The position numbers and the translations under genes are program-made. A stretch of DNA of 64,000 bases. It comes from Phycisphaerae bacterium (GTDB lineage: Bacteria > Planctomycetota > Phycisphaerae > Phycisphaerales > Phycisphaeraceae). The stretch is from contig JAUHZU010000005.1 in NCBI GenBank assembly GCA_030425705.1, positions 186,001 to 250,000 of the forward strand, given 5' to 3'. The notes below the pieces were generated by a model. That model made no database searches and was not told the DNA's origin. It saw only the letters and a program-made list of their open reading frames with translations. Of the stretch, positions 41,517-54,400 are shown one piece after another. The first letter of the stretch is position 1. The number at the start of each line of letters is the position of its first letter.

Positions 41517-43343
41517 CTACTCGACGCCGGCCTCCTCGAACGACTCGGCCAGACGCATCAGCGCCCGCTCGCCTTCGCGCGGGTTCACCTGCGCCGCCAG
41601 CAGCGTCGCCGAAACCTCCAGCTCCAGCGCCGCCTCGGCGTCGCCCTGCTCGGCCAGCGCGGCACCGGCGTCACGCAGTGTCCGCGCCCGCGCCAGCACC
41701 ACCGCCTCGCGGATACCCGGCCAGACCTCGTCCACCAGGTCACGCGCCAGACGCCCCGCGACCTCGTCGTCGGTCGGCAAGGTGAAGTAGCTGCGACGCC
41801 AGGTCCGCCCGACCACGTACTGCTGCTGGTCGTCAAAGGTGACCCACCGGTTCGCGTTCCACTGGCCGACGACCCGGCCGGTCGCGCGGTCGGTCACCGT
41901 CACGCTGCACGCCACCGTCCCGAGCTTCTGCCAACGCGTGTAGCCCGTGCTGTACCCGTAGCTGCTGTTGTAGTACGACCCGGCCGACTCGATCCGGCGG
42001 AGCCGGATGTCCGTCTCGGTGATCTGCACGCGCACGGCGTATCGCTCGGCGTCCGGCTCGGTGCGCTGCATGTAGGGCGGCAGGGGCTTGGTCTGGAGTT
42101 CAGCAAGCAGCAGCCCCGAATCCACGCCGAGCGCCGGGTCGTGGTCCGGGACCTCTAGCGTCAGCGACGCGTCCAGCCCGGACAGCAGCGTGCGTTCGCT
42201 CTGCCGCAGGTGCTCGTCCACGGCAGCGCGGTCGTGGACCCGCCCCGAGAGGTAAGACAGCAATGCCGCGCCCGGCCGGTCGGACGACGCGAGGGCTTCG
42301 CCCTGCTGCAGGAACGACTGCGCCAGGCCCCGACGGGCCGACGGGTAGTGATTGACGTAGCTCATGGCCTGCTCGAACCGGTCTCGCGCGGCGCGGTAGT
42401 CCTGCTCGGCCAGCTCGCGTTCGCCCTGGGCGACCGCGCCGTCGGCAAGCCCGCGCTGCGCATCGCGCAGCACATCCCGGGCCGACTGGTTGGACGAGTC
42501 CGTCTCCAGTGCGGCCGACGCGCGTTGGACCGCCTCGCCCAGGTCCCCGGCTGAAGCGGCGCGCTGCGCGCGCAACGCCTGGTCGTTCGCCTGGTCGATA
42601 CCTGCCTGGACCCGCTGGGCCATGTCGGCCGCGTCGGGGTGGTAGGGCCAGATCGCCAGTGCGCCCGACAACTGCTCGAGGGCCGGCCCCAGCCGGCGGG
42701 ACTGCATGAGGGCGACGCCGGCGTTGGCCATGTCCTCGGAGCGCGACCGGAAGTACGCCGCCCGGTGCAGCGCGGCGCGGGCCGGCAGGAACATCGGCTC
42801 GGCCTCGACCACCGCCGCGAAGCGCTCAGCCGCGAGCTTCCACTGCCGCTCGTCCGAAAGCGACTGCCCCTGGCTCAAGGCGGCAAGCGGCGCACCCCCC
42901 AGCACGTCCTGCACCGGGCCGAACGACCCGGCCGCGGTGACGGCATCGTCGTTCTCGCCGTCGAGCTGCGCCGCCCGTCGGGCGTGCTCCGCGGCGCCGA
43001 GCAGGTCGCCCGCGTCCGCCGCCTCGATCGCCAGCGTCAACCTGGCCTGCGCTGCGGCGACCTGTGCATCGGTCAGCGCGGCGTAGGCGGCGTCCAGCGA
43101 CGGGTCGAGCCCGATCGCCTCGATGTACTGCCCGATCGCCGCCTCGTACTCGCCCTCCCGGTGCAGCAGCAGGCCGGTTTCGTAGGCCAGCCGTGCGTCT
43201 CCGCCGCGGTCTGAGGCGGTCAGGGTGCGTTCCTGCGCCGCCGCAACCCCCGAGACCCCCAACCCGATCGACGCGGCGCCCATCATGGCACCGGCAAGAA
43301 CAACTCGGCCGACCAGACCGGCGTGACGCGGGGGGCAGTTCAT
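41517..43343 (-). CDS. Secreted TPR protein with C-terminal beta domain (paralog of the 52.2 kb gene)
   Basis: 608 residues from the ATG at 43343 (GGAG upstream). Signal peptide at about 1-38 ending AAAQ. Residues 45-400 are TPR-like (YETGLLLHREGEYEAAIGQY; ALEQLSGALAIWPYHPDA; FEQAMSYVNHYPSARRGLAQ). A signature QGEALASSDRPGAALLSYL follows, then a beta region (YAVRVQITETDIRLRRIESA; VACSVTVTDRATGRVVGQW) and a helical end (VAGRLARDLVDEVWPGI). The lipoprotein at 52184-54400 shows the same order and several matching segments. Envelope location likely; role unknown. Confidence 0.85.
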   Translation of the reverse strand: MNCPPRHAGLVGRVVLAGAMMGAASIGLGVSGVAAAQERTLTASDRGGDARLAYETGLLLHREGEYEAAIGQYIEAIGLDPSLDAAYAALTDAQVAAAQARLTLAIEAADAGDLLGAAEHARRAAQLDGENDDAVTAAGSFGPVQDVLGGAPLAALSQGQSLSDERQWKLAAERFAAVVEAEPMFLPARAALHRAAYFRSRSEDMANAGVALMQSRRLGPALEQLSGALAIWPYHPDAADMAQRVQAGIDQANDQALRAQRAASAGDLGEAVQRASAALETDSSNQSARDVLRDAQRGLADGAVAQGERELAEQDYRAARDRFEQAMSYVNHYPSARRGLAQSFLQQGEALASSDRPGAALLSYLSGRVHDRAAVDEHLRQSERTLLSGLDASLTLEVPDHDPALGVDSGLLLAELQTKPLPPYMQRTEPDAERYAVRVQITETDIRLRRIESAGSYYNSSYGYSTGYTRWQKLGTVACSVTVTDRATGRVVGQWNANRWVTFDDQQQYVVGRTWRRSYFTLPTDDEVAGRLARDLVDEVWPGIREAVVLARARTLRDAGAALAEQGDAEAALELEVSATLLAAQVNPREGERALMRLAESFEEAGVE

Positions 43344-43582
43344 CGGCAACACTCCGTTGGGCTGTGGGGACGCGGGGCGGGACAGCCCCCGCCCGTCCCC
43401 TCAGGGTAGCCCCGCCGACCGGCAAAACCAAGGGGGATCAACGCGACAACCGCTGGGGGAAACCCGAAAGCCACCGCTTCGTACGGGAAGCCGGGCCCAA
43501 TCTCCCCCGCACCGGGAACCGATGAAACAGTAACCTACCCGCGTAGGCCGACGAGCCCCCAACGCCCGAGCCACCGACCCGC

Positions 43583-44818
43583 ATGAGCGCCCGCGCCCTG
43601 AGCGACAAAACGAAGACCCGCCCCGGCGGCCGGATCGCCGGCGTGCTGTTCGGGCTCGTCTTCGCCGGGGCCGGCGTGGCCATGCTTATCTTCCTGTTTG
43701 TCCTGCCGGTGATGCGGGTCGTCGACGGGCGCGGCTGGACACCGGTGCCCTGCACGGTCGTGTCCTCCACGGTCACGACCCATTCGGACAGCGACGGCAC
43801 GACCTACGGAGTGGAGATCGTCTACCGCTACGAGATCGACGGCCGGTCGTACAGCTCCGACCGGCGCAGCTTCGCGGTCGACGGCTCGTCCTCGGGGCGG
43901 AGCGGCAAAGAGAAGTTCGTCGCAGACCATCCGCCGGGCAAGGCGATGACCTGCTACGTCGACCCGTCCGACCCGGCGTCGGCGGTGCTGGACCGGGGCA
44001 TCTCGGCCTCGTTCCTGTGGGGACTGTTCCCGCTGCCGTTCCTCGCGATCGGGCTCTTTGTCATCTATTTCTCGCTGCGGGGCAATCAAGACCGGACCGG
44101 CGGCGCCAAATCCAAAACCGCAAAGCGCAGTAAGCGCGGCGTCATCCCCGACGCATCCGCTCAGGCCGCGGACGAGCGGCTCCTGCTGCGCCCGGGCAAG
44201 CAGCGCCTGGCCTACGCGGCCGGCATCCTGGTCTTTGCGCTGTTCTGGAACGGGATCATCAGCGTCTTCCTCGTCCAGCTCTTCGACGGCTACCGGTCTG
44301 GCGACCCCGACGTGTGCCTGTCGCTGTTCATGGTCCCCTTTGTCCTGGTCGGTGCCGGGCTGGTGTTCTTCTGGCTGCGCAAGGTGATGCTGCTGTTCGC
44401 GCCCGTGATCGAGCTGGAGCTGGACCGCTCGGCCATCCCGCTGGGCGGCTCGGCGACGCTGAAGTGGCGCGTGGTCAGCCGGCTCGGTCGGCTGTCTGCG
44501 ATGTCGGTCGTGCTGGTGGGCGAGGAGCGCGCGACCTACCGCCGGGGCACAGAGACGATCACCGACACCCACACCTTTTTCGAGCAGGACCTGGCCGAGG
44601 CGGACGGAAGCGACCTCGCGTTCGACACCCTGGCCGCGGTCCCGGAGCGCGGGACGGTCATCCTGAAGGTCCCCGCGGACACGATGCACACCTTCAAGGC
44701 CGGCAACAACAAGATCGTCTGGACCCTCAAGGTCCGCGGGCAGGTGCCCCGCTGGCCCGACCCGGTGGACAGCTACGAGCTCACGGTCCTGCCGATGCGC
44801 CTGGGCGGCGCGGAGTAA
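43583..44818 (+). CDS. DUF3592-type membrane protein
   Basis: 411 residues. Membrane helices at about 20-46, 150-172, 215-243 and 250-277. The region between helices 1 and 2 (WTPVPCTVVSSTVTTHS ... VEIVYRYEIDGRSYSSDRR ... MTCYVDPSDPASAVLDRG) is a typical DUF3592 domain outside the membrane. The C-terminal 130 residues form a beta-sandwich-like cytosolic or periplasmic domain (IELELDRSAIPLGGSATLKW). First gene of a three-gene operon; the next starts 5 bases after its stop. Function unknown. Confidence 0.85.
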   Translation: MSARALSDKTKTRPGGRIAGVLFGLVFAGAGVAMLIFLFVLPVMRVVDGRGWTPVPCTVVSSTVTTHSDSDGTTYGVEIVYRYEIDGRSYSSDRRSFAVDGSSSGRSGKEKFVADHPPGKAMTCYVDPSDPASAVLDRGISASFLWGLFPLPFLAIGLFVIYFSLRGNQDRTGGAKSKTAKRSKRGVIPDASAQAADERLLLRPGKQRLAYAAGILVFALFWNGIISVFLVQLFDGYRSGDPDVCLSLFMVPFVLVGAGLVFFWLRKVMLLFAPVIELELDRSAIPLGGSATLKWRVVSRLGRLSAMSVVLVGEERATYRRGTETITDTHTFFEQDLAEADGSDLAFDTLAAVPERGTVILKVPADTMHTFKAGNNKIVWTLKVRGQVPRWPDPVDSYELTVLPMRLGGAE

Positions 44819-44823
44819 CCGAC

Positions 44824-45207
44824 ATGCCAAGCGATCACGACAAGCTGGCGGTGATCCTGGACCGGACGGTCGCGGGCGGGGACCGCGGCTACGTGCCGGG
44901 CGAACCGCTGACCGGGGTCGTGCGCTGGTCGCTGGGCGACGTGCACGTGTCGTTCGTCGTGCGGCTGTTCTGGCGGACCGAGGGCAAGGGCACAGCCGAC
45001 AGCGGGCTGGCCGACGAGCTGAGCTTCGAGGGCATGCCCGGCTCGGGCGAGCAGGCGTTCGTGTTTGAGGGGCCCAGCGGTCCCTACAGCTTCTCGGGCG
45101 ATCTGGTCTCGATCCTCTGGGCGGTGGAGGCGATCGCCTCGCCGGGCAAGCACGTCGCGCGGGCGGACTTCGTGCTCTCGCCGACGGGCAAGGAGGTGAA
45201 AGTGTGA
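44824..45207 (+). CDS. Small arrestin-like beta protein
   Basis: 127 residues, no signal peptide. The pattern YVPGEPLTGVVRW, VSFVVRLFWRTEGKGTADSG, FVFEGPSGPYSFSGDLVSIL and VARADFVLSPTG resembles the N-terminal half of arrestin/Spo0M-like sandwiches, where Y-x-P-G-E-x-L-x-G begins the fold. The similarity is my reading and not proven. Between the DUF3592 gene and the ATPase gene, which overlaps its stop by 4 bases (GTGA), so the three are translationally linked. Confidence 0.78.
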   Translation: MPSDHDKLAVILDRTVAGGDRGYVPGEPLTGVVRWSLGDVHVSFVVRLFWRTEGKGTADSGLADELSFEGMPGSGEQAFVFEGPSGPYSFSGDLVSILWAVEAIASPGKHVARADFVLSPTGKEVKV

Positions 45208-45809
45208 CCGCGCTGCCGCCCCCCACCGCCGCCGTCGAAACGCCCCGCGGGCGTCCCTGCGACAACCCGTTCCGGGCACAGCGGCTGGACGCGCTGTCGT
45301 TTGTCGAAGAGGCCGTGCGCCTCGACGACGTCATGCAGGTGCTGGGCGGGCGTCGCTACCGGGGCGCGCTCGTCGGGCCCCACGGCACGGGCAAGACCAC
45401 GCTGCTCCACGCCGTCGGCGAACGGCTGATCGGGCACGGGCTGTCGCCGATGCCGCTGTTCATGAACACCGATGAGCGGGGTACGTTCCCCGCGCGCTGG
45501 CGGGTCGCGCTCCGCCGGGCCGGCCGGGGCGATGCGCTGCTGCTGGACGGCTACGGGCACCTGCCCGCCTGGGCACGGGCGCGGGTCCGGCTCACGGCAC
45601 GTTCGGCCGGGGCGGTCGTCGTCACCGCGCACAAACGCTGTGCCCTCCCGACCGCCGCGCGCACAGCCAGCAGCCCGGCGCTGCTGCGCACCCTGGTCAC
45701 CGAGCTGACCGACGACGCTACCGCCGACCGCATCGACTGCGAAACGCTCTGGCAACAGCACCGGGGCAACCTGCGCGACGCGCTGCGGGCGCTCTACGAC
45801 CTGCACTGA
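45204..45809 (+). CDS. Small P-loop ATPase of AAA/DnaC-like type
   Basis: 201 residues from a GTG that overlaps the previous stop. Walker A GPHGTGKTT at about residues 58-66 and a Walker B-like ALLLDGYGHL at about 110-119, in which the usual acidic second residue is Gly. Then VVVTAHKRCALPTAAR resembles sensor 1. It is shorter than typical AAA+ proteins and lacks a clear lid domain. It could energise or regulate the DUF3592/arrestin-like partners; that is inference from the operon only. Confidence 0.8.
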   Translation: MTALPPPTAAVETPRGRPCDNPFRAQRLDALSFVEEAVRLDDVMQVLGGRRYRGALVGPHGTGKTTLLHAVGERLIGHGLSPMPLFMNTDERGTFPARWRVALRRAGRGDALLLDGYGHLPAWARARVRLTARSAGAVVVTAHKRCALPTAARTASSPALLRTLVTELTDDATADRIDCETLWQQHRGNLRDALRALYDLH

Positions 45810-45855: not shown

Positions 45856-47208
45856 TTACTCGACGCTGAGCAGCGTGGTCTCGTAGGTGAGGTCCAGCCC
45901 GGGCACCCGCCGCACCGCCGCCACGAGCAGCCCGACGCGGGCGTCGTAGGTGTAGACCGACGAGTAGCTGTTGCCCGGCCCCTGCTCTGTGATCTCGACG
46001 AGGGTCACGCCGTCCACCGGGTAGACATCGGTGACGCGGATCGTGTAGCCCACCGTCGCGTCCTCGTCGAGCACCTGCCCGGTCTCGAGCCGGCCGAGCA
46101 CGTCCGGCGCGATAAACAGCCCGAACCGCTGGTTGGTACAGATCATCTGCGGGATCGGGTCCTGCTGGGCGTCGTCATTCATCGGCGGCGCGCCGCGCGG
46201 CACATGACGCTTCATGGTGACGCCGACCTGCATCAGGTTCTCGGTGCTCTCGCCGAGGTCGAAGGTGATGTCCGAGCCGCGGTGCTGTGCGGGCAGGCCC
46301 TGCATCTGGTTGGTGACCACCAGTTCATAGACCAGCCGCTCGAACCCGCGCATCTGCTGGGTAAAGGTAGTGCCCTGCCAGGGGAGCTCCGCGGCGCGGT
46401 AGGTGCGATACTCGGTGGAGACGACCAGCTTGCGGTCGTCGTTGTCGGAGGACTCGCTCTGGAACAGCATGATGCCGGTGTGGCGGTCGTAGGCCCGGCG
46501 GATGATGGACTCGCCGTTGTCCTGGAAGGTGTGGGTGTAGTGGATGACGTCGTAGGTGTCGCCGTCGATCTGGTAGGTGCCCGCCTCGAACTTCGGGTTG
46601 GCGTCCTCGGCGGTGGTGAGCTGGGGGTTGACCAGCTGCGACGACGGGACCCAGAGCTGCCCGCCGCTGGCGGCGTCGACCAGCTTGAGCGAGGTCTCGG
46701 TGAGCTGGGGCTGGGTTTCGTTAACGGGGATGGTGTAGTAGCGAAGCTCCAGCAGCACGCCGACGGGTGTGACCGCGATGATGTCGTACTGCTGGTACCC
46801 GGTCCCGCCGACGCCGATCTGCGGGTTGATCGGGTCGTTCTTCTTGAGCGTTGTCGCGGTCGTGCCGAAGTAGGTGATCCGTGCGCCGGGGACGACCCAC
46901 TCGGGCGCGGGGTCGTTCCGCCAGTCGTGCTCGGGCGGGTTCTGCGGGTCGGCGTTGGGGTCGGTTGCTGGGTCCGTACGCGGCTCGGGCTGGGGGTCGG
47001 TACGTGGGTCCGTATTGGGCGCGGGGCGTGGGTCGGTTACCGGCTCGGGCCGCGGGTCGGGCCGCGGCTCCAGCGGGTTCGTGCCGTTGGGCAGGGGCGG
47101 GTCCGCGGCCACCGGCATCACCAAGACCAAGGCAGCAAGCACACCAATGGCGCACGCGCGCAGACCCCCGTGACAACTCGTCGATGTAGCCGTGAACCCT
47201 CTGCGCAT
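45856..47208 (-). CDS. Secreted WVVPGARIT-family protein, copy A
   Basis: 450 residues from the ATG at 47208. Signal peptide at about 1-35 (GVLAALVLVMPVAA), then about 50 residues of DPRPEPVTDPR-type low complexity, then the conserved body: PEWVVPGARITYFG, YDIIAVTPVGVLLELRYY, LVDAASGGQLWV, ELPWQGTTFTQQMRGF, LDEDATVGYTIRVTDVYPVD, GVTLVEITEQGPGNSY and YDARVGLLVA. Two further copies lie directly upstream on the same strand. The body looks all-beta and has no catalytic motif that I recognise. It is the last gene of the row, convergent with the ATPase gene at 45204. Confidence 0.82.
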   Translation of the reverse strand: MRRGFTATSTSCHGGLRACAIGVLAALVLVMPVAADPPLPNGTNPLEPRPDPRPEPVTDPRPAPNTDPRTDPQPEPRTDPATDPNADPQNPPEHDWRNDPAPEWVVPGARITYFGTTATTLKKNDPINPQIGVGGTGYQQYDIIAVTPVGVLLELRYYTIPVNETQPQLTETSLKLVDAASGGQLWVPSSQLVNPQLTTAEDANPKFEAGTYQIDGDTYDVIHYTHTFQDNGESIIRRAYDRHTGIMLFQSESSDNDDRKLVVSTEYRTYRAAELPWQGTTFTQQMRGFERLVYELVVTNQMQGLPAQHRGSDITFDLGESTENLMQVGVTMKRHVPRGAPPMNDDAQQDPIPQMICTNQRFGLFIAPDVLGRLETGQVLDEDATVGYTIRVTDVYPVDGVTLVEITEQGPGNSYSSVYTYDARVGLLVAAVRRVPGLDLTYETTLLSVE

Positions 47209-47257
47209 CGCTGCCCCTGTGCTGGACCTCTGCGTCCGATCCCTGCGGGTGCCCCGC

Positions 47258-48562
47258 CTACTCCACACGCTGGAGCTGGGACTCGACCCGACGCCCCATC
47301 TCCGGCTGGTACCACTCGCTGTCGACCTGGAGCCCGACGCTCGCGTCGTAGGTGGCGCGGCTGTAGTAGCCCCGGCCGCGGCCCTGCTCGGTGATCTCTA
47401 CCAGCGTGACGCCCTGGACCTGGAACACGTCCGTGACCGTGATGCGGTACCCGATCGCCGGGTCCTCATCCAGCACCTGCCCGCGCTCCAGCCGGGACAG
47501 CACGTCGGGGGGGATGTACAGCCCCAAACGCTGGCTCGGGCTGAGCATCTCCCGGCGCTCGCTGGTCTGGTTCGGGCCCTGGGGCATGTCGATATCCATC
47601 GTGATGTTCGCCCCGATCAGCACCGGGCTGGTCGCGGCAAAGGCGAGCTCGATATCGACGTCGATCCGCAGGTCCGGCAGGCGGTCCAGGCCAGGCACCT
47701 GCTCGGCGATCATGACCATCGCCCCGCCGTAGTCGAGCTTTGTGAACCCCTGCATCTGCTGCGTAAACTCCCCACCGATCCACGGCAGCTCGGCGACGCG
47801 GTAGCCCTGGTACTCGCTGTAGGCGTGGCTGCGGTTCTGCGTGTCCTCGGTGAGGTCGCTCTGGTAGAGCTGGATGCCGGTGCGCACGTCGTAGATGCGG
47901 CGCTGGGTCGTGTTGCCTGCTTTAGTGATGAAAAAGATTGCATCGTACGAGTCGTCGTCGATCTGGTAGACGCCGCGCTCGACCGTGGCGTCAGCCGTGT
48001 TGGGATCGTTGGGTTCGGTGTTAGGGGTGTTGGCGATGTCGGCCGGCCGCATCCACAGGCCCCCACCGGTCGCGTGGTCGACGAGCGCCGTGTTCACGTT
48101 GGTCAGCTCGGGCGCGGCGCCGGGCCGCGGCTCAAAGTAGATGCGCGACTCCAGCACGACGCCAATCTCGGTCACCGCGACGATGTCGTACTGCACATAG
48201 CTGGTGCCCCCCGCGCCGGAGACCTGCTCGGGCTTGACCTCCTTGCTGCCCTGCACCGACGCACCGTACTGCGTGATGCGTGCGCCGGGGACGACCCAGT
48301 CGGGGGGGGGCGACGCCTGGCCGTTGTTCCCGTTGTTCGCGCCGTTGCGGTCCAGCGGGTTCGCCCCGCCGGGGTTGCCCGCGGGCGGCTGACGGTCCAG
48401 CGGGTTCGGGCCGGGGGCATTCGGGGCCGTCGGCGTGCGTTCCAGCGGGTTGGCGGGTTCATCGGCGTGGGCTGTCGCCGCCCCCAAGGAAGCGACGAGA
48501 AGCAACGCGATGAGTCGTGTGAGAACAGGCCTTACCGCCGCATTTCGTGAAGTACCGTGCAT
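47258..48562 (-). CDS. Secreted WVVPGARIT-family protein, copy B
   Basis: 434 residues from the ATG at 48562 with AGGA upstream. Signal peptide at about 1-34, then a spacer with three NPLDR/NPLER units and Pro/Gly/Asn, then the same body as copies A and C: PDWVVPGARITQYG, YDIVAVTEIGVVLESRIY, LVDHATGGGLWM, ELPWIGGEFTQQMQGFTKL, LDEDPAIGYRITVTDVFQVQ and GVTLVEITEQGRGRGYYS. It ends 50 bases before the start of copy A. Function unknown; the export signal and variable spacer suggest surface display. Confidence 0.82.
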   Translation of the reverse strand: MHGTSRNAAVRPVLTRLIALLLVASLGAATAHADEPANPLERTPTAPNAPGPNPLDRQPPAGNPGGANPLDRNGANNGNNGQASPPPDWVVPGARITQYGASVQGSKEVKPEQVSGAGGTSYVQYDIVAVTEIGVVLESRIYFEPRPGAAPELTNVNTALVDHATGGGLWMRPADIANTPNTEPNDPNTADATVERGVYQIDDDSYDAIFFITKAGNTTQRRIYDVRTGIQLYQSDLTEDTQNRSHAYSEYQGYRVAELPWIGGEFTQQMQGFTKLDYGGAMVMIAEQVPGLDRLPDLRIDVDIELAFAATSPVLIGANITMDIDMPQGPNQTSERREMLSPSQRLGLYIPPDVLSRLERGQVLDEDPAIGYRITVTDVFQVQGVTLVEITEQGRGRGYYSRATYDASVGLQVDSEWYQPEMGRRVESQLQRVE

Positions 48563-48620
48563 GTGTTCATCCTGATTCGTGCTGACAAAACCGTCGGCCA
48601 CCGATCCCGCGCGGGGCGTG

Positions 48621-49943
48621 CTACTCGACGCCGGTCAGGTTCATCTCGATCCGCTGGTTGACTGCGGGGTGCCGGCCGACATAAGCCACCTGCAGCCCGT
48701 AGCGGGCGTCGTAGGTCGCCACGACGGTGTAGCTGTTGTTCCGCCCGGCCTCGGTGATCTCGACCAGCGTGACGCCGTCGACCTGGTACATGTCGGTCAC
48801 GCGGATCGTGTAGCCGATCGCCGGGTCCTGGTCGAGCACCTGACCCACCTCCAGCCGATCGAGCACCGCCGGATCGATGTAGATGCCGATCCGGTTGTTC
48901 GGGCTCAGGAGCTCCCGTTTCTGGTCGGACTGACGCCGACCGTTGGGCCCCTCGACCTCGACGGTCATCTCGGTGCCGATCAGCGATTCGGTCGTGTCGG
49001 CGAAACTGAACTCGACCTGCATCTCCATCCGGACTTCGGGGAGGCGTTCGGGGCCGGCCTGAAGCTGCTCGACGGTGTGGACCATCGCGCCCTGGTAGGT
49101 GAGACGGGTCATGTCCTGGATCTGCGGGGTAAAACGCCCACCGACCCAGGGCAGCTCGGTCATGCGGTAGCCGGTCAGCTCGGAGTAGACGTGGCTGCGG
49201 AGCTCGGTCGTGTCGGTGACCTGGCTTTGGTAGAGCTGCATGCCGGTCGCCCGGTCGTAGACCTTGCGGATCGTGGTGTCGCCCGACGCGTTGACCAGAG
49301 CGATGGCGTCGAATCGGTGCTCGCCGATGCTGTAAGGGCCCTTGTATACCACCAGCCCGCCGTCGCGGCCGTCGGACGCTTCCATGGCGTCGATGGCGTC
49401 CGGCAGCATCCACAGCCCACCGCCGGTCGCGTGGTCGACCAGTGAAACGGCCGTCCCGACCGCGAGCTGCGGGCTCTGGTCGCCGACCAGAGGGACGCCA
49501 TAGGTCCGCAGCTCCAGCAGCACGCCGGCCTCGGTCACCGCGATCACGTCGTACTGCGTGAAGCCGTAACCACCGGTCCCTGTGTTGTAGAGCCGACGGT
49601 CGCTGGCGCGCTGCTCCTCGCGCTGGCGGGCGCGGCGTTCCACCTCATCCATCGGCATGCCCGAATCGATGTCGCGTTGTCTCTCGCGTTCGTCTTCTTC
49701 ACGCCAGCGGTTGTCGCGGGTGCGGTTGCGCTTGGTGTGCTGGCTCGACGCGCCGTACAGCGTGATCCGCGCCCCGGGCACGACCCAATCGGGGACCGTC
49801 TGTTGGGCCTGCGCCGGGACGAGGCCGGGCTGGCCCTGTGCATTCGGGGCCAGCAGCAATGCAAGCACGAGCAGTGCTATAGCCGGCAGGATGCCGTTCA
49901 TCGAGCCGGGTTCGTCGTGGTTTCGTTTCGTTTCGCTTGGCAT
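48621..49943 (-). CDS. Secreted WVVPGARIT-family protein, copy C
   Basis: 440 residues from the ATG at 49943 (AGGTG upstream); an ATG at 49901 gives a shorter signal peptide and is also possible. After the hydrophobic signal (ILPAIALLVLALLLAPNA) only a short spacer precedes PDWVVPGARITLYG. A charged insertion unique to this copy follows (RWREEDERERQRDI ... VERRARQREEQRA, about residues 85-125). The shared blocks then resume: YDVIAVTEAGVLLELRTY, LVDHATGGGLWM, ELPWVGGRFTPQIQDM, LDQDPAIGYTIRVTDMYQVD and GVTLVEITEAGRNNSY. First gene of the row of three. Confidence 0.82.
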   Translation of the reverse strand: MPSETKRNHDEPGSMNGILPAIALLVLALLLAPNAQGQPGLVPAQAQQTVPDWVVPGARITLYGASSQHTKRNRTRDNRWREEDERERQRDIDSGMPMDEVERRARQREEQRASDRRLYNTGTGGYGFTQYDVIAVTEAGVLLELRTYGVPLVGDQSPQLAVGTAVSLVDHATGGGLWMLPDAIDAMEASDGRDGGLVVYKGPYSIGEHRFDAIALVNASGDTTIRKVYDRATGMQLYQSQVTDTTELRSHVYSELTGYRMTELPWVGGRFTPQIQDMTRLTYQGAMVHTVEQLQAGPERLPEVRMEMQVEFSFADTTESLIGTEMTVEVEGPNGRRQSDQKRELLSPNNRIGIYIDPAVLDRLEVGQVLDQDPAIGYTIRVTDMYQVDGVTLVEITEAGRNNSYTVVATYDARYGLQVAYVGRHPAVNQRIEMNLTGVE

Positions 49944-50141
49944 GGGACACCTGATACCGTTGGGTGGGTTGACAACCGCGATCATCCCAAAGATAGCGGC
50001 TGCGTCCAAGAGCTTTCTCACCCCCCTATGCGTTGCGGCATCGGACCGGGGGCCATCGCTGCAGAAAAAAAGCCCAGATATTCGATCCTGGCCAACGAAG
50101 GGGGTTTAGAGGGGCAGCAAGAACCTATCCGCGGTTCGGGG

Positions 50142-51095
50142 TCACCCGCCCAGCCCCGCGGCCCGCCGCAGCTTGCGGACCTCTGGCGCCGTCAGCAGAC
50201 GCCAGTTGCCGCTCTTGAGCGTCTTCATCCGCACCGGACCCACGGCCACGCGCTTGAGCTTGGTCACCTTAAACCCCAGCCGGGCGAGCACGCGCCGGAT
50301 CTCCCGGTTCTGCCCCTCGCGCAGCGTGATCGCCAGCATCGTCTTGTCGCCCCGCGACCGGTCGGTGTCGGTGCGGAGGATGCGCACGGCCTCGACAGCG
50401 GCCTTCTTCGCCCCGGGTTTGTCGCGGCGTGAACCGGCCGAGTGATCCGGGGATTCGCTGCGCTCATCGCCCGGCGTGGTTGCGTGTGTATCGCCTGCCT
50501 TAGTTTTTGCAACGGACTTGGGGGTGGCGAGGTAGATGCCTTTCTTGAGGCGTTCGAGGTCGTCGGGGCCGACGCGCCCCTTGACGGTGACGCGGTACTC
50601 CTTGGGCACCTCGAAGCTGGGGTGCGTGAGCCGGTGGGTGAGCTCGCCGTCATTGGTGAGCAGGATCATGCCGGTGGAGTCGGCGTCGAGCCGGCCGACG
50701 GGGTAGAGCCGGAGCTTCGCAGCGAGGCCGGGGTCGATGAGGTCGACGACGCGCTTGCGGCCTTGCGGGTCGTCGCTGGTGCTGATAACGCCGCGGGGCT
50801 TGTTCACGAGGATGTAGGCCAGCGACCCGGGCAGGAGGGTCTGGACGGTCGAGGCGCGTTGGCGTTTGCCGGGGGCGGCGCGGTTCTTGCGCGGGCGGGG
50901 CAGCGCCTGGCCGTCGATCTCGATGCGGTCCTCGGCTGGGTCGACCCACGCCGGCAGGGTCGCCACCCGCTCGCCGTTGACCGTGACCCGGCCCTGCTCA
51001 ATCAGCTCCTCACAGGCGCGCCGCGACGCAAAGCCGGATTCGGCCATGGCTTTCTGCAGGCGGATGCCACGCGCGTTGTCGGTGTAGGAATGCAT
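50142..51095 (-). CDS. RluB/RsuA-family pseudouridine synthase
   Basis: 317 residues. N-terminal S4 RNA-binding domain (IRLQKAMAESGFASRRACEE ... GRVTVNGERVATL), then the synthase domain with VNKPRGVISTSDDPQGRKRV, the catalytic block YPVGRLDADSTGMILLTNDG (Asp nucleophile), GQNREIRRVLARLGFKVTKL and a basic end. It contains an insertion of about 40 Ser/Lys/Arg-rich residues after KGIYLATPKS. Likely modifies 23S rRNA, as RluB does; the site cannot be read. Downstream of lptB on the same strand. Confidence 0.92.
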   Translation of the reverse strand: MHSYTDNARGIRLQKAMAESGFASRRACEELIEQGRVTVNGERVATLPAWVDPAEDRIEIDGQALPRPRKNRAAPGKRQRASTVQTLLPGSLAYILVNKPRGVISTSDDPQGRKRVVDLIDPGLAAKLRLYPVGRLDADSTGMILLTNDGELTHRLTHPSFEVPKEYRVTVKGRVGPDDLERLKKGIYLATPKSVAKTKAGDTHATTPGDERSESPDHSAGSRRDKPGAKKAAVEAVRILRTDTDRSRGDKTMLAITLREGQNREIRRVLARLGFKVTKLKRVAVGPVRMKTLKSGNWRLLTAPEVRKLRRAAGLGG

Positions 51096-51215: not shown

Positions 51216-51953
51216 TCAATCAAACTCGTCGCCCTTGAACATCGAGCCGAGGTACGCCTGCTTCACACGCTCGTTGTTGATGATCTCTTTGGGCGTGCCC
51301 TCGGCGAAGATCCGGCCGTCCGACACGACGTAGACCCGGTCGCACACCGCGAGGATGTGGTGGACGTTGTGGTCGGTCACGAGCATGGAGATCTCGTACT
51401 CGTCCCGCAGCCGGCGGATCTCGTCCTGCAGCTCCTCCACGGCCACGGGGTCCACGCCGGCAAAGGGCTCGTCGAGGAGGATAAGCGTGGGCTCGGTGAT
51501 GAGGGCGCGGGCGATCTCCAGCTTCCGCCGCTCCCCGCCGGACAGCGTGCGGGCGTGCTGCTTCTTGTTCTTGGTCAGGTCGAACTGCTCCATGAGCTGC
51601 GCGGCCCGCTGCTTGCGTTCGCGCCGCCGCATCGGGCGGGTCTCCAGGATCGCCATGAGGTTCTGGTAGACCGACAGCCGCTGGAACACGCTGGGCTCCT
51701 GCGCGAGGTAGCCCATCCCCCGCTGGGCCCGCTGGTACATCGGCAGCTTCGAGACGTCCTGCCCGTTGAAGACGACCTGCCCCTCGTCGGGCACGATCAT
51801 GCCCATCGTCATACGGAAGCTGGTGGTCTTGCCCGCGCCGTTACGGCCCAGCAGGCCGACGATCTCGCCTTCCTCCACAGCAAACGAGACCTTGTCCACG
51901 ACCGTTCGGCCGGAGTAGTTCTTGACCAGGTTGTTGGACTTGAGGATGTACAC
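51216..51953 (-). CDS. lptB: LPS export ABC transporter ATPase LptB
   Basis: 245 residues, standard length. GLLGRNGAGKTTSFRMTMGM (Walker A), YLAQEPSVFQRLSVYQNL (Q-loop and LptB-type sequence), TLSGGERRKLEIARAL (signature), LILLDEPFAGVDPVAVEEL (Walker B) and VTDHNVHHIL (H-loop, LptB type). It powers transfer of lipopolysaccharide to the outer membrane with LptFG, LptC and LptA, none of which are next to it. Together with kdsB it argues for true LPS. Confidence 0.95.
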   Translation of the reverse strand: MYILKSNNLVKNYSGRTVVDKVSFAVEEGEIVGLLGRNGAGKTTSFRMTMGMIVPDEGQVVFNGQDVSKLPMYQRAQRGMGYLAQEPSVFQRLSVYQNLMAILETRPMRRRERKQRAAQLMEQFDLTKNKKQHARTLSGGERRKLEIARALITEPTLILLDEPFAGVDPVAVEELQDEIRRLRDEYEISMLVTDHNVHHILAVCDRVYVVSDGRIFAEGTPKEIINNERVKQAYLGSMFKGDEFD

Positions 51954-52183: not shown

Positions 52184-54400
52184 ATGCCAACCCCCCCAAA
52201 ACACCTCCCGCGGATCGGTCGGCTGTCGGTGCTGCTGGTGGCCGCGGTCCTGCTGGTCTCCGGGTGTGCCGCGCGGAACCACCTGCGCCAGGCAGACGCC
52301 GCGGCCGCGGCCGGGGACATGCGCTCGGCGCTGTACCACTACGAGCGGGCACTCTCGCACGACGCGGACCTGGCGCAGGATACGGAGTACCTGGACCGGC
52401 TGGCCGCGGCGCAGACCCGCGTGGCCTACGAAGACGCCGCCGTGCTGCGGGCCGACGGACGGTTCGAGGCCGCCGCGCGCAAGCTGCACGAGTCGCTGAG
52501 CTACGACCCGGGCTTCGTGCCCAGCGCCGAGCTGCTGGCCGTCGTCAACCGCGAGGCCGGGCAGGAACGCTACCGCCGGGCCCTCGCCGCTGCGGACCTG
52601 GGCGCGATGGACGCCGCGGGTGAGCACCTGCGCATCGCCTTCGCGCACGACCCGGTGAACGACGCGGTGCTCGCCGCGCTCGCGTCCCTGCAGGTCGAGA
52701 CGCTGCCGGCCAACACGGCCGGGCTCGACGCCTTCCGCCGGGGCGCGTCCCAGGCCGGCGAGCTCCGCTGGTCCCAGGCGGCCGGGGCGTACCGCGAAGC
52801 GATCACCCTGAACCCCAACCTGCTGCCCGCGCGGGCGGAGCTGGCGACCGCTCAGGCCCAGCTCGCCGAGTCGCGCCAACTGGCCGACAGCGGCGCGGCC
52901 CGGGTGCGTGAGTCGCGCATCAGCGTCGCGGTCCCCCTGCTGGAACAGGCGTTGGAGGTCTGGCCCTACAACCAGCCGGCCCGCGAGCTGCTGACGCACG
53001 CCCAAAGCGCGTTGGCGCTGGCGAACAGCAGCTTCAACGACGCGGTCGGCGCGGCCGAGCAGTCCGACTGGGACGCCGCCATCGCCGCCGCCGATGCCGG
53101 GCTGGTCGTCGACAAGTCGCACCCGCAGCTGCGCGAGCTGCGTCCGCAGCTCTCGACGCGCGCCGCCAACGACTACACCCGCCGCGCCGCTGCGCACCTG
53201 GAGGTCGAGGACTACGAGGGCGCGCGGGACGACTACCTGCGGGCCCTGGACTACAAGCACCCGCACGCCCCGGCCCAGCGCGGGCTGGCGGGCGTCTACT
53301 ACGCCATGGGTGAGCGGCTCGAGCAGCAGGGCCGGCCCGGCGCTGCGCTGCTGCACTACCACCGCGGCCAGACCTACATGGCCACCGCCGAGATCTCGCA
53401 GGGCCAGACCCGCGCCTACCGCGCGGTCCGCCAACGCAACGGCATGACGCTGGGCATCGCCGTTGGCGAGACCCCCGAGGGGCTGGCCGTCTCCTCGGGC
53501 CGGCTTTCGGACGCGCTCCACCGGGCCGCCGCGCGCCACGAGCGCAGCGGCCTCGCCCTCACCCAGGACGAGCCGCGATTCGCCCTCACGACCGAGGTCA
53601 CCGGCGCGTGGATCGAAGAGAACCGCACCGGGGCCACCACCCGAACCCATAACTACACCGTCGATGAGCCCCGGCCGAACCCCCGGTATCACGCGCTGGT
53701 CGATGACATCGACGACCTGCGCATCGAGATCGACCGGCTCGAAGCCGACTACCACAGCCACGTCGGCCGGAACCACGGCCACCACCGCCACGACGGCGGC
53801 GACGTGGTCGGTGACCGTCACGGCCACGGCCGCGAGATCAGCGACCGCGAGGCACGCCACCTCAACCAGTTGCTGTCCCGCATCAACCGCAGCAAGCGTG
53901 ACATGGACCGGCTGTACGCCCAGCTCCGCCGGACGCCGCGCGAGGTCCTGGTCGCGATCCCCTACACCGCCAACTACACCATCGAGACCTACACCAAGAC
54001 CGGTGGGGTCACCGTCGACGCCCGTTTGATCGACACCCAGACCGGCGAGACCATCGAGTCGTTCACGGTCTCCGGCGAAGCGACGCACCGCGACACGACG
54101 GTCCCCAACCCCCGGCCGGAGATCGGCATTCAGAGCGACCCGCTCTCGCTCCCCGATGACGGGCAGGTCGCCCACGAGGTCGCCGCGGACGCCGCGCGCT
54201 CCGCCACCTCACGGGCCATCGAGGCCGCGGTGATGTATGAGTTGGACAAGCTGCGTGCGTCGGCCGCGGCGATGCGCGAGGCGGCCGACGAGACCGCCGC
54301 GCTCGAGGCCGAGGTCGCCGCGGGCGTGCTGGTCGAGATGGTCGACAGCGATGCCTCGTCCCGCGTGCTGGGCAACCTCGGCGAAGCCCACGTCGAGTAG
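52184..54400 (+). CDS. TPR lipoprotein with C-terminal beta domain (paralog of the 41.5 kb gene)
   Basis: 738 residues; GGAG lies before the ATG. Lipobox LLVSGC puts the lipidated Cys near residue 27. TPR-like helices run to about residue 410 (ALYHYERALSHDADLAQD; VPLLEQALEVWPYNQPAREL; YEGARDDYLRALDYKHPHAP), followed by MGERLEQQGRPGAALLHYHR, the signature it shares with the 41.5 kb protein. A His-rich stretch lies at about residues 524-550 (HVGRNHGHHRHDGG), then a beta region (VTVDARLIDTQTGETIESF) and helices. The His-rich loop could bind metal. Role unknown. Confidence 0.85.
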   Translation: MPTPPKHLPRIGRLSVLLVAAVLLVSGCAARNHLRQADAAAAAGDMRSALYHYERALSHDADLAQDTEYLDRLAAAQTRVAYEDAAVLRADGRFEAAARKLHESLSYDPGFVPSAELLAVVNREAGQERYRRALAAADLGAMDAAGEHLRIAFAHDPVNDAVLAALASLQVETLPANTAGLDAFRRGASQAGELRWSQAAGAYREAITLNPNLLPARAELATAQAQLAESRQLADSGAARVRESRISVAVPLLEQALEVWPYNQPARELLTHAQSALALANSSFNDAVGAAEQSDWDAAIAAADAGLVVDKSHPQLRELRPQLSTRAANDYTRRAAAHLEVEDYEGARDDYLRALDYKHPHAPAQRGLAGVYYAMGERLEQQGRPGAALLHYHRGQTYMATAEISQGQTRAYRAVRQRNGMTLGIAVGETPEGLAVSSGRLSDALHRAAARHERSGLALTQDEPRFALTTEVTGAWIEENRTGATTRTHNYTVDEPRPNPRYHALVDDIDDLRIEIDRLEADYHSHVGRNHGHHRHDGGDVVGDRHGHGREISDREARHLNQLLSRINRSKRDMDRLYAQLRRTPREVLVAIPYTANYTIETYTKTGGVTVDARLIDTQTGETIESFTVSGEATHRDTTVPNPRPEIGIQSDPLSLPDDGQVAHEVAADAARSATSRAIEAAVMYELDKLRASAAAMREAADETAALEAEVAAGVLVEMVDSDASSRVLGNLGEAHVE

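Follow-up and report, generated by a model that had tools for sequence, protein, structure and literature searches.

A tandem triplet of putatively exported Phycisphaerae proteins, each predicted to contain two LolA-like half-barrels

What kind of protein is encoded by three adjacent, mutually similar genes in which no domain could be recognised? The question is raised by a 64,000-nucleotide stretch of a Phycisphaerae bacterium genome (assembly GCA_030425705.1, contig JAUHZU010000005.1, positions 186,001 to 250,000; hereafter the window), where the genes P3, P2 and P1 lie in tandem on the minus strand. A preliminary description made from the nucleotide sequence had noted six shared blocks in three secreted paralogs, and proposed that their conserved cores and fast-changing spacers belong to surface parts that work together or against variable partners. 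Here we find that each protein is predicted to consist of two LolA-like half-barrels, at the level of fold and outside any LolA sequence family, and suggest that the proteins may act on a hydrophobic ligand in the cell envelope.

The paralogs and their predicted fold

P3, which is transcribed first, spans 48621..50021 (466 amino acids), P2 spans 47258..48601 (447 amino acids, with NPLxR units in its linker) and P1 spans 45856..47268 (470 amino acids, with a Pro/Asp-rich linker). These assignments were made from open reading frames (ORFs) and alignment, together with an export heuristic for P3 and P2, the ortholog of P3 (Q3) in a second species of the genus (genome G001) and, for P1, a tree. 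The P3 reading frame begins at a GTG at 50021, and position 49943, previously taken as its end, is an ATG inside the gene. On our own reading the likely start is the ATG at 49901, which gives MNGILPAIALLVLALLLAPNAQG and a signal peptide, while the ATGs at 48562 and 47208 are the best fits to a signal peptide in P2 and P1. With these likely starts the genes are separated by 58 bases (P3-P2) and 49 bases (P2-P1), so that a single transcript is plausible. All six blocks are colinear in the three proteins and every fixed letter is invariant in a three-way alignment. Pairwise BLAST gave 46% identity for P2-P3 (E 1.5e-105), 39% for P1-P2 (1.6e-82) and 38% for P1-P3 (1.3e-72), values that exclude chance resemblance and confirm the tandem paralogy.

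The N-termini of P1, P2 and P3 are all signal-peptide-like and have no lipobox according to a home-made heuristic, in agreement with the earlier view of a secreted family. When the heuristic was applied to 48 family ORFs that were not open at a contig end, 44 had a signal-peptide-like start and one a lipobox-like motif. Only P1-P3 were found in the host genome (G000; 4.1 Mb, 98.7% complete), including when a 19-member profile was used.

An AlphaFold2 model of the P2 body, built from an alignment of ten sequences (the three window paralogs and seven proteins from four publicly named loci), is all-beta, with a predicted local distance difference test score (pLDDT) of 89.6 and a predicted template modelling score (pTM) of 0.86. 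It can be seen that the same strand order, together with a short helix, occurs twice in the model, at residues 13-175 and 194-352. The repeat is also detected by profiles: the first and second halves of 48 members (a set distinct from that of the export count, picked by coverage and length from 57 profile-found ORFs, some of them duplicates or fragments, and used also for the tree below) aligned with 97.8% probability (E 1.2e-12, 161 columns). With insert letters stripped, the probability was 98.0%, the E-value 2.3e-13 and the score 82.9, against scores of at most 17.0 for 100 column shuffles and 10.4 for the reversed profile. Corresponding motifs can be paired between the first and second halves, GGGLWMRPADI with RLGLYIPPDVL and YDVRTGIQLYQS with YDASVGLQVDSE. 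The sequence comparison confirms the internal duplication, which we read as an ancient event within the gene.

The predicted first half-barrels are encoded at 49140..49802 in P3 (including an inserted hairpin), 47774..48319 in P2 and 46372..46914 in P1, and the second at 48624..49139, 47261..47773 and 45859..46371, respectively, all on the minus strand. In P2 they follow the model strands, supported by the half-versus-half profiles for the first and by structural comparison with VIA-align for the second. The first half of P3 was modelled alone with AlphaFold2 (pLDDT 87.6, pTM 0.75) and compared by VIA-align, its second half was placed only by alignment to the corresponding half of the P2 model, and both halves of P1 by alignment to the P2 model only.

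When the whole P2 model was compared with the PDB, the VIA-align matches fell mainly on the second half: LmcA (Z 9.5; 160 aligned, 5.2 Å), DUF1849/EipB (8.9; 149, 3.9 Å), EPD-BCP1 (8.9; 118, 3.1 Å), LolA (8.0; 110, 3.5 Å) and LppX (7.7). Matches on the first half included 3fzx (Z 7.9) and MucB (5.1). For the separately modelled first half of P3 the best match was the YmcC-like 3fzx (Z 11.0; 147 aligned, 4.2 Å), and 4fvs (9.8), ApoB and lipovitellin (8.8-9.7), EPD-BCP1 (9.4), LmcA (9.2), DUF1849 (8.6), RseB (8.1; 126 aligned, 4.2 Å) LppX (at least 7.7) and LolB and LolA (both 7.7) were also recovered. Because LolA-like or related lipid- or lipoprotein-binding half-barrels make up most of both lists, and almost all of the highest-ranking matches, the two halves are read as two LolA-like domains. 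By the predicted models and VIA-align, both halves fit the LolA fold, a half-open beta-barrel that typically has short helices over its concave face. LolA is a single domain of about 180 residues, whereas each protein here has two homologous halves, each about 175 residues long. The resulting double-LolA-fold family can be described by export, a P-x-(W/F/Y)-x-x-PG-x-R body start, two homologous halves and a PW between them, a description that is partly circular as members were gathered with the family's own profile. The earlier statement that no domain is recognised therefore holds at the level of sequence, where no credible match was found, but not at that of the predicted fold.

Distribution, linkers and the charged insertion

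The family is patchy across the class, the phylum and the Armatimonadota. Profile searches were positive in 4/61 genomes of near relatives, at least 22/397 of the class, at least 15/392 of the phylum and at least 4/151 of the Armatimonadota, seed included. The class and phylum draws share genomes, G000 and G018 among them. Because no more than four candidates per genome were scored in these two draws, and no more than 11 in the Armatimonadota, the fractions and copy numbers obtained are minimum values. A scan of public sequences gave four loci, three from metagenome-assembled genomes (MAGs) titled Planctomycetota or Phycisphaerales and one from Chthonomonadales, an order of Armatimonadota; the match coordinates in the Phycisphaerales MAG are identical to those in G088, a genome of the class. 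Close to home, G001 has a triplet with the same gene order, whose members are 1:1 orthologs of those in the window at 61, 55 and 59% identity. A further member of the genus, G002, shows no triplet and has a distant copy that is truncated by contig ends (L015:2-961), and distant single-copy relatives occur in G018 and G064 from another genus of the same taxonomic family (the G064 protein is 57% identical to that of G018).

Copy numbers were taken from a survey of 36 positive genomes. Tandem arrays were present in four of these, and assembly fragmentation may hide some. The arrays of G000, G001 and G110 comprise three genes each and that of G088 four; G088 and G110 each have one further copy outside the array. 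Where other genomes have several copies, these lie on separate contigs, barring single genes read as two pieces. It had been asked whether family matches always carry signal peptides and occur in clusters; the first is borne out for most members (44/48, as above), but constant clustering is not. A tree of 48 rows, made by a quick method and with 19 of its 45 inner branches starred, groups the six G000/G001 genes in one clade (100) as three orthologous pairs, P1 being the first to branch off; the arrays of G088 and G110 fall in a clade of their own (100). The two array clades indicate at least two independent expansions, and the three orthologous pairs indicate that the triplication in the window, which is thus real, predates the split of the two species. 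The G002 copy groups with those of G018 and G064, apart from the triplet, a placement that suggests either transfer or old paralogy followed by losses. A Phycisphaerales MAG (L077:1800-7119) has four tandem family paralogs in an array independent of that in the window. By eye, short modules at the N-terminus of some relatives (L058, L039, L038, L045 and L061) look rich in beta structure and similar to lipocalins, and in L079, from the Armatimonadota, a long N-terminal extension looks HEAT-like.

The stretches ahead of the bodies are less conserved than the bodies themselves. Between G000 and G001 the bodies of P1, P2 and P3 are 62, 61 and 60% identical, compared with 31, 40 and 46% for the pre-body stretches including the signal peptide, the lengths of which are 121 vs 87, 99 vs 60 and 76 vs 56 residues (ORF starts being uncertain). 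For the bodies, nonsynonymous divergence (dN) is 0.30-0.33 and synonymous divergence (dS) 0.62-0.72, giving dN/dS of about 0.43-0.48. The Pro/Asp-rich linker of P1 (dN 0.915, dS 0.80) is faster than the P1 body, whereas the linkers of P2 and P3 (dN 0.31 and 0.35) are near their own bodies' values; these rates are rough, being taken from aligned codons past residue 25 (52, 35 and 45 codons) with gaps omitted. The notion of fast-changing spacers accordingly fits the low conservation and variable length of the pre-body stretches and the linker of P1, but not the linkers of P2 and P3. Among the 39 of the closed ORFs with a recognisable body start, 11 have an NPL motif ahead of the body, triplet copies included, compared with 6/347 neighbouring ORFs (p 2e-8, a generous value as related rows were counted). 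Since NPL recurs in distant relatives, the NPLDR units do not set P2 apart.

A different picture emerged for the charged insertion of P3 (49581..49733, minus strand; 51 residues, 59% D/E/K/R), which had been taken for a variable N-terminal spacer. The alignment and model place it after WVVPGARIT, between body strands 1 and 2 and inside the first domain, and in the model it forms a hairpin of two helices, at residues 27-46 and 51-73, with pLDDT means over ten residues of 73 to 97. Between G000 and G001 it is identical at 45/51 positions, compared with 187/335 in the remaining body (Fisher p 4.9e-6, with neighbouring sites non-independent), and no part of the P3 body evolves more slowly (dN 0.083 vs 0.377 at similar dS, 0.795 vs 0.714). 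The hairpin is present in 2/41 genomes, only in P3 and its ortholog. The low dN, the hairpin model and this restriction indicate that the insertion is a constrained, ortholog-specific arm rather than a loose spacer.

Proposed function and its rivals

By analogy with known half-barrels, we consider the triplet products most likely to be soluble, exported envelope proteins with two half-barrel cups for a hydrophobic ligand, serving as carrier, buffer or sensor, with a probability of roughly 0.55. Each protein would be exported and probably soluble (there is no lipobox by the heuristic and no further hydrophobic anchor by eye), with a flexible linker followed by two tandem half-barrels of the LolA/RseB/LppX fold. 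The concave face of each half-barrel may form a cup for the ligand, which could be the acyl chain of a lipid or lipoprotein, or a peptide. The triplication in the genus would then supply three such proteins with differing linkers, one of them with a helical arm, and these may act jointly in one process.

LolA, a lipoprotein localisation factor that passes lipoproteins from LolCDE to LolB, is exported and soluble, properties in which the triplet proteins would resemble it, and the half-barrel of LolA and LolB is matched in each half (Z 6.4-8.0, 110-141 aligned); LolA and LolB, however, have one domain where there are two in tandem here, and P3 adds the helical hairpin. The mycobacterial lipid-binding envelope proteins LmcA, LppX and LprG/LprF, several of which are lipoproteins and single-domain, resemble the halves in fold (Z 9.5 and 9.2 for LmcA, 7.7-7.8 for LppX) but not in sequence, where no match was found. 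The best match of the P3 first half, 3fzx (putative exported BF2203), has one domain and 12% identity. The chloroplast ATP-synthase biogenesis factor BFA1 (5yvf), described as having two beta-barrel domains, is the top Foldseek match of the whole two-half model (E 1.7e-4), but the VIA-align alignment spans one half only (Z 5.9) and the template modelling (TM) score is about 0.2. As to ligands, PMC6608618 reports a proposal that the concave pocket of LolA/LolB holds an acyl chain and that of VioE a hydrophobic substrate, and a measured binding of fatty acid by EPDR1.

Several observations weigh against this reading. The Z-scores of 7-11 are middling by VIA-align's own yardstick, nine porins are found among the 50 VIA-align matches of the P2 model (Z 5.0-7.4) together with a few unrelated chains, and the Foldseek TM scores are low, at about 0.1-0.4. 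At E 0.01 none of 24 diverse family members matches any Pfam model, among them LolA (PF03548), LolA_like (PF17131), DUF3108 (PF11306) and EipB/DUF1849, and the window proteins do not match LolA at its curated cut-off. A profile search of the PDB with the family gave nothing below E 0.59. With hhalign, the family aligned to DUF3108 and LolA_like sequences at probabilities below 2%, using single sequences or a pair, which make weak profiles: at most 0.5% for four sequences taken from relatives, two of which score above the DUF3108 cut-off and two below it, and at most 1.9% for two single LolA_like sequences (one under the cut-off). Among 20 neighbours scanned, two are LpxI, from one genus, and one is an ABC exporter. 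Finally, hydrophobic/polar alternation on the 19 predicted strands is not above that of shuffled strands (p 0.25), which is mildly against ligand binding and leaves it something that we infer, as we do the envelope location.

More generally, the bodies of P1-P3 gave no credible match in Pfam, NCBIfam, PHROGs, PADLOC or PDB sequences. Scattered body matches appear only at E 0.06 or worse, such as phrog_26903 in P3 (E 0.065). Weak matches of the Pro-rich linker of P1 to PARP, TonB and phrog_7187 (E 0.0012), and of the P2 linker to DUF1180, look like effects of composition and were set aside. The family is thus nameless in the libraries searched, while its kind of fold is already known, and none of the open-access papers listed in literature searches deals, judging by title and abstract opening, with a LolA-like or double-LolA family of planctomycetes.

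The fold matches also admit an envelope-stress sensor resembling RseB/MucB, which would cap a periplasmic target, for instance an anti-sigma factor tail or the substrate of a protease, and release it when a lipid or a misfolded outer-membrane protein enters the cup. RseB shares with the first half its half-barrel (Z 8.1, as above) and is a two-domain periplasmic protein, as these would be, and PMC7400510 has the RseB/MucB half-barrel predicted as a lipid-signal site. A PDZ domain precedes the body in 3/10 relatives scanned (L058, L060 and L039), with NCBIfam matches to Ctp and Deg proteases, and these fusions would supply the protease link; protease genes also adjoin some members (C11 in L121, M48 in L119). 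However, the second domain of RseB is smaller and of different make, of about 100 residues in six- and two-stranded sheets according to PMC7400510, whereas the second half here is predicted to be a LolA-like half-barrel. No MucB_RseB Pfam match was obtained for the 24 members, and no RseA/MucA-type anti-sigma gene is among the scanned window neighbours, a result that leaves room for a distant partner. We regard a sensor of this particular type as unlikely.

A chaperone for outer-membrane assembly or integrity, which like EipB (DUF1849) would hold unfolded outer-membrane proteins or lipoproteins in the periplasm, is hardly a stronger candidate. The EipB structure 6ntr does match both halves (Z 8.9 and 8.6), and two relatives from one genus lie beside lpxI and one (L015) beside what reads as tsf, resembling eipB, which according to PMC10787603 clusters with lpx genes and ef-ts in Proteobacteria and is found in a subset of Alphaproteobacteria. 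Against this, PMC10787603 describes EipB as a single 14-strand spiral domain and not a tandem pair, there is no sequence match to EipB/DUF1849, and so patchy a family (22/397 class genomes) is ill-suited to a general assembly factor. The reading that we prefer, the RseB-like sensor and the chaperone would all use the same pocket, and the evidence at hand does not separate them.

The view of the preliminary description, that these are secreted or surface structural proteins whose variable linkers meet variable partners while the fold is a mere scaffold, can draw on a body dN/dS of about 0.43-0.48 between species whose neighbouring LptB proteins are 96% identical, on the poorly conserved pre-body stretches of shifting length, on a P1 linker in which dN exceeds dS, and on arrays that arose at least twice. 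It is nevertheless very unlikely: the linkers of P2 and P3 are no faster than their bodies on aligned codons, the charged insertion is the slowest part, arrays are rare among the positive genomes, and neither a Pfam adhesin nor an anchor match was found in the window proteins or the 24 members. The proposed variable partners likewise find no support in the phage and defence libraries (PHROGs, PADLOC), which gave no meaningful match. An enzyme using the same fold on a hydrophobic substrate as VioE does (Z 7.3 and 7.8) is the least credible, since VioE is cytoplasmic and no His, Ser or Cys is conserved in a 24-member alignment, the invariant or near-invariant columns of which are Gly, Pro, Trp, Tyr, Arg, Asp and the start Met.

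Gene neighbourhood and significance

P3 comes after genes for a pseudouridine synthase (50142..51095) and the lipopolysaccharide-export ATPase LptB (51216..51953; TIGR04406, 324.6 bits vs a cut-off of 240), both on the same minus strand. Synteny with these genes is kept in G001, the LptB of which is 96% identical, but we treat them as context and not as part of a system. Elsewhere, lpxI adjoins the family gene in G018 and G064, and MsbA-type ABC exporters lie near the G896 and G091 members, below the MsbA cut-off and, in G896, with another exporter model scoring higher. The remaining scanned neighbours include Sel1/transglutaminase-like proteins, C11 and M48 peptidases, trypsin/TPR, GDSL, HD-domain, beta-lactamase-like and PQQ-repeat proteins, among others. 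Clustering by blastp revealed no neighbour common to most of 46 stretches (the window included, some sharing a genome or genus); the largest cluster covers 7/46, and several clusters are apparently antisense frames. The envelope-lipid theme among the neighbours is therefore a hint, suggestive only.

Further features of these surroundings can be recorded. The G002 copy (L015) adjoins, on our own reading, tsf and rpsB. Large Sel1-repeat proteins, two of them transglutaminase-like, lie directly beside members on the same strand in L096:2736-5594, L098:7264-10242 and L124:2714-5524. The triplet region is flanked by two TPR proteins, 41517-43352 (minus) and 52184-54400 (plus), which are paralogs (their G001 homologs match both, at 28% across); the latter has weak CsgG and TraC matches. 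As both homologs lie on one side of the G001 triplet, the region has been rearranged. Convergent with P1 is a small P-loop ATPase-like ORF (45204-45809, plus; GPHGTGKTTLL), 66% identical in G001 and without an NCBIfam match at E 1e-10, and a DUF3592 protein (43583-44818, plus) is conserved in G001 together with its downstream ORF.

A more far-reaching version of our reading is that the family forms an undescribed two-cup envelope carrier system for lipids or lipoproteins in Planctomycetota and Armatimonadota, in which one ligand would span both cups or be passed from cup to cup. The triplet beside lptB would then be a soluble relay, with the conserved hairpin of P3 as a docking arm. We regard this as decidedly unlikely.

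The comparison of paralogs with orthologs also exposes a general trap, in that a charged 'spacer' that seems variable among paralogs can, when species are compared, prove to be the most constrained part. To our knowledge, the transport of lipids and lipoproteins to the outer membrane of planctomycetes is poorly known. The host genome has LptB but no hits to the Pfam profiles LolA (PF03548), LolA_like (PF17131) or DUF3108 (PF11306), which makes an exported double-LolA-fold family a sensible candidate for such transport. What was an orphan secreted family is now testable in its fold, its domain duplication and the class of ligand that it may bind.

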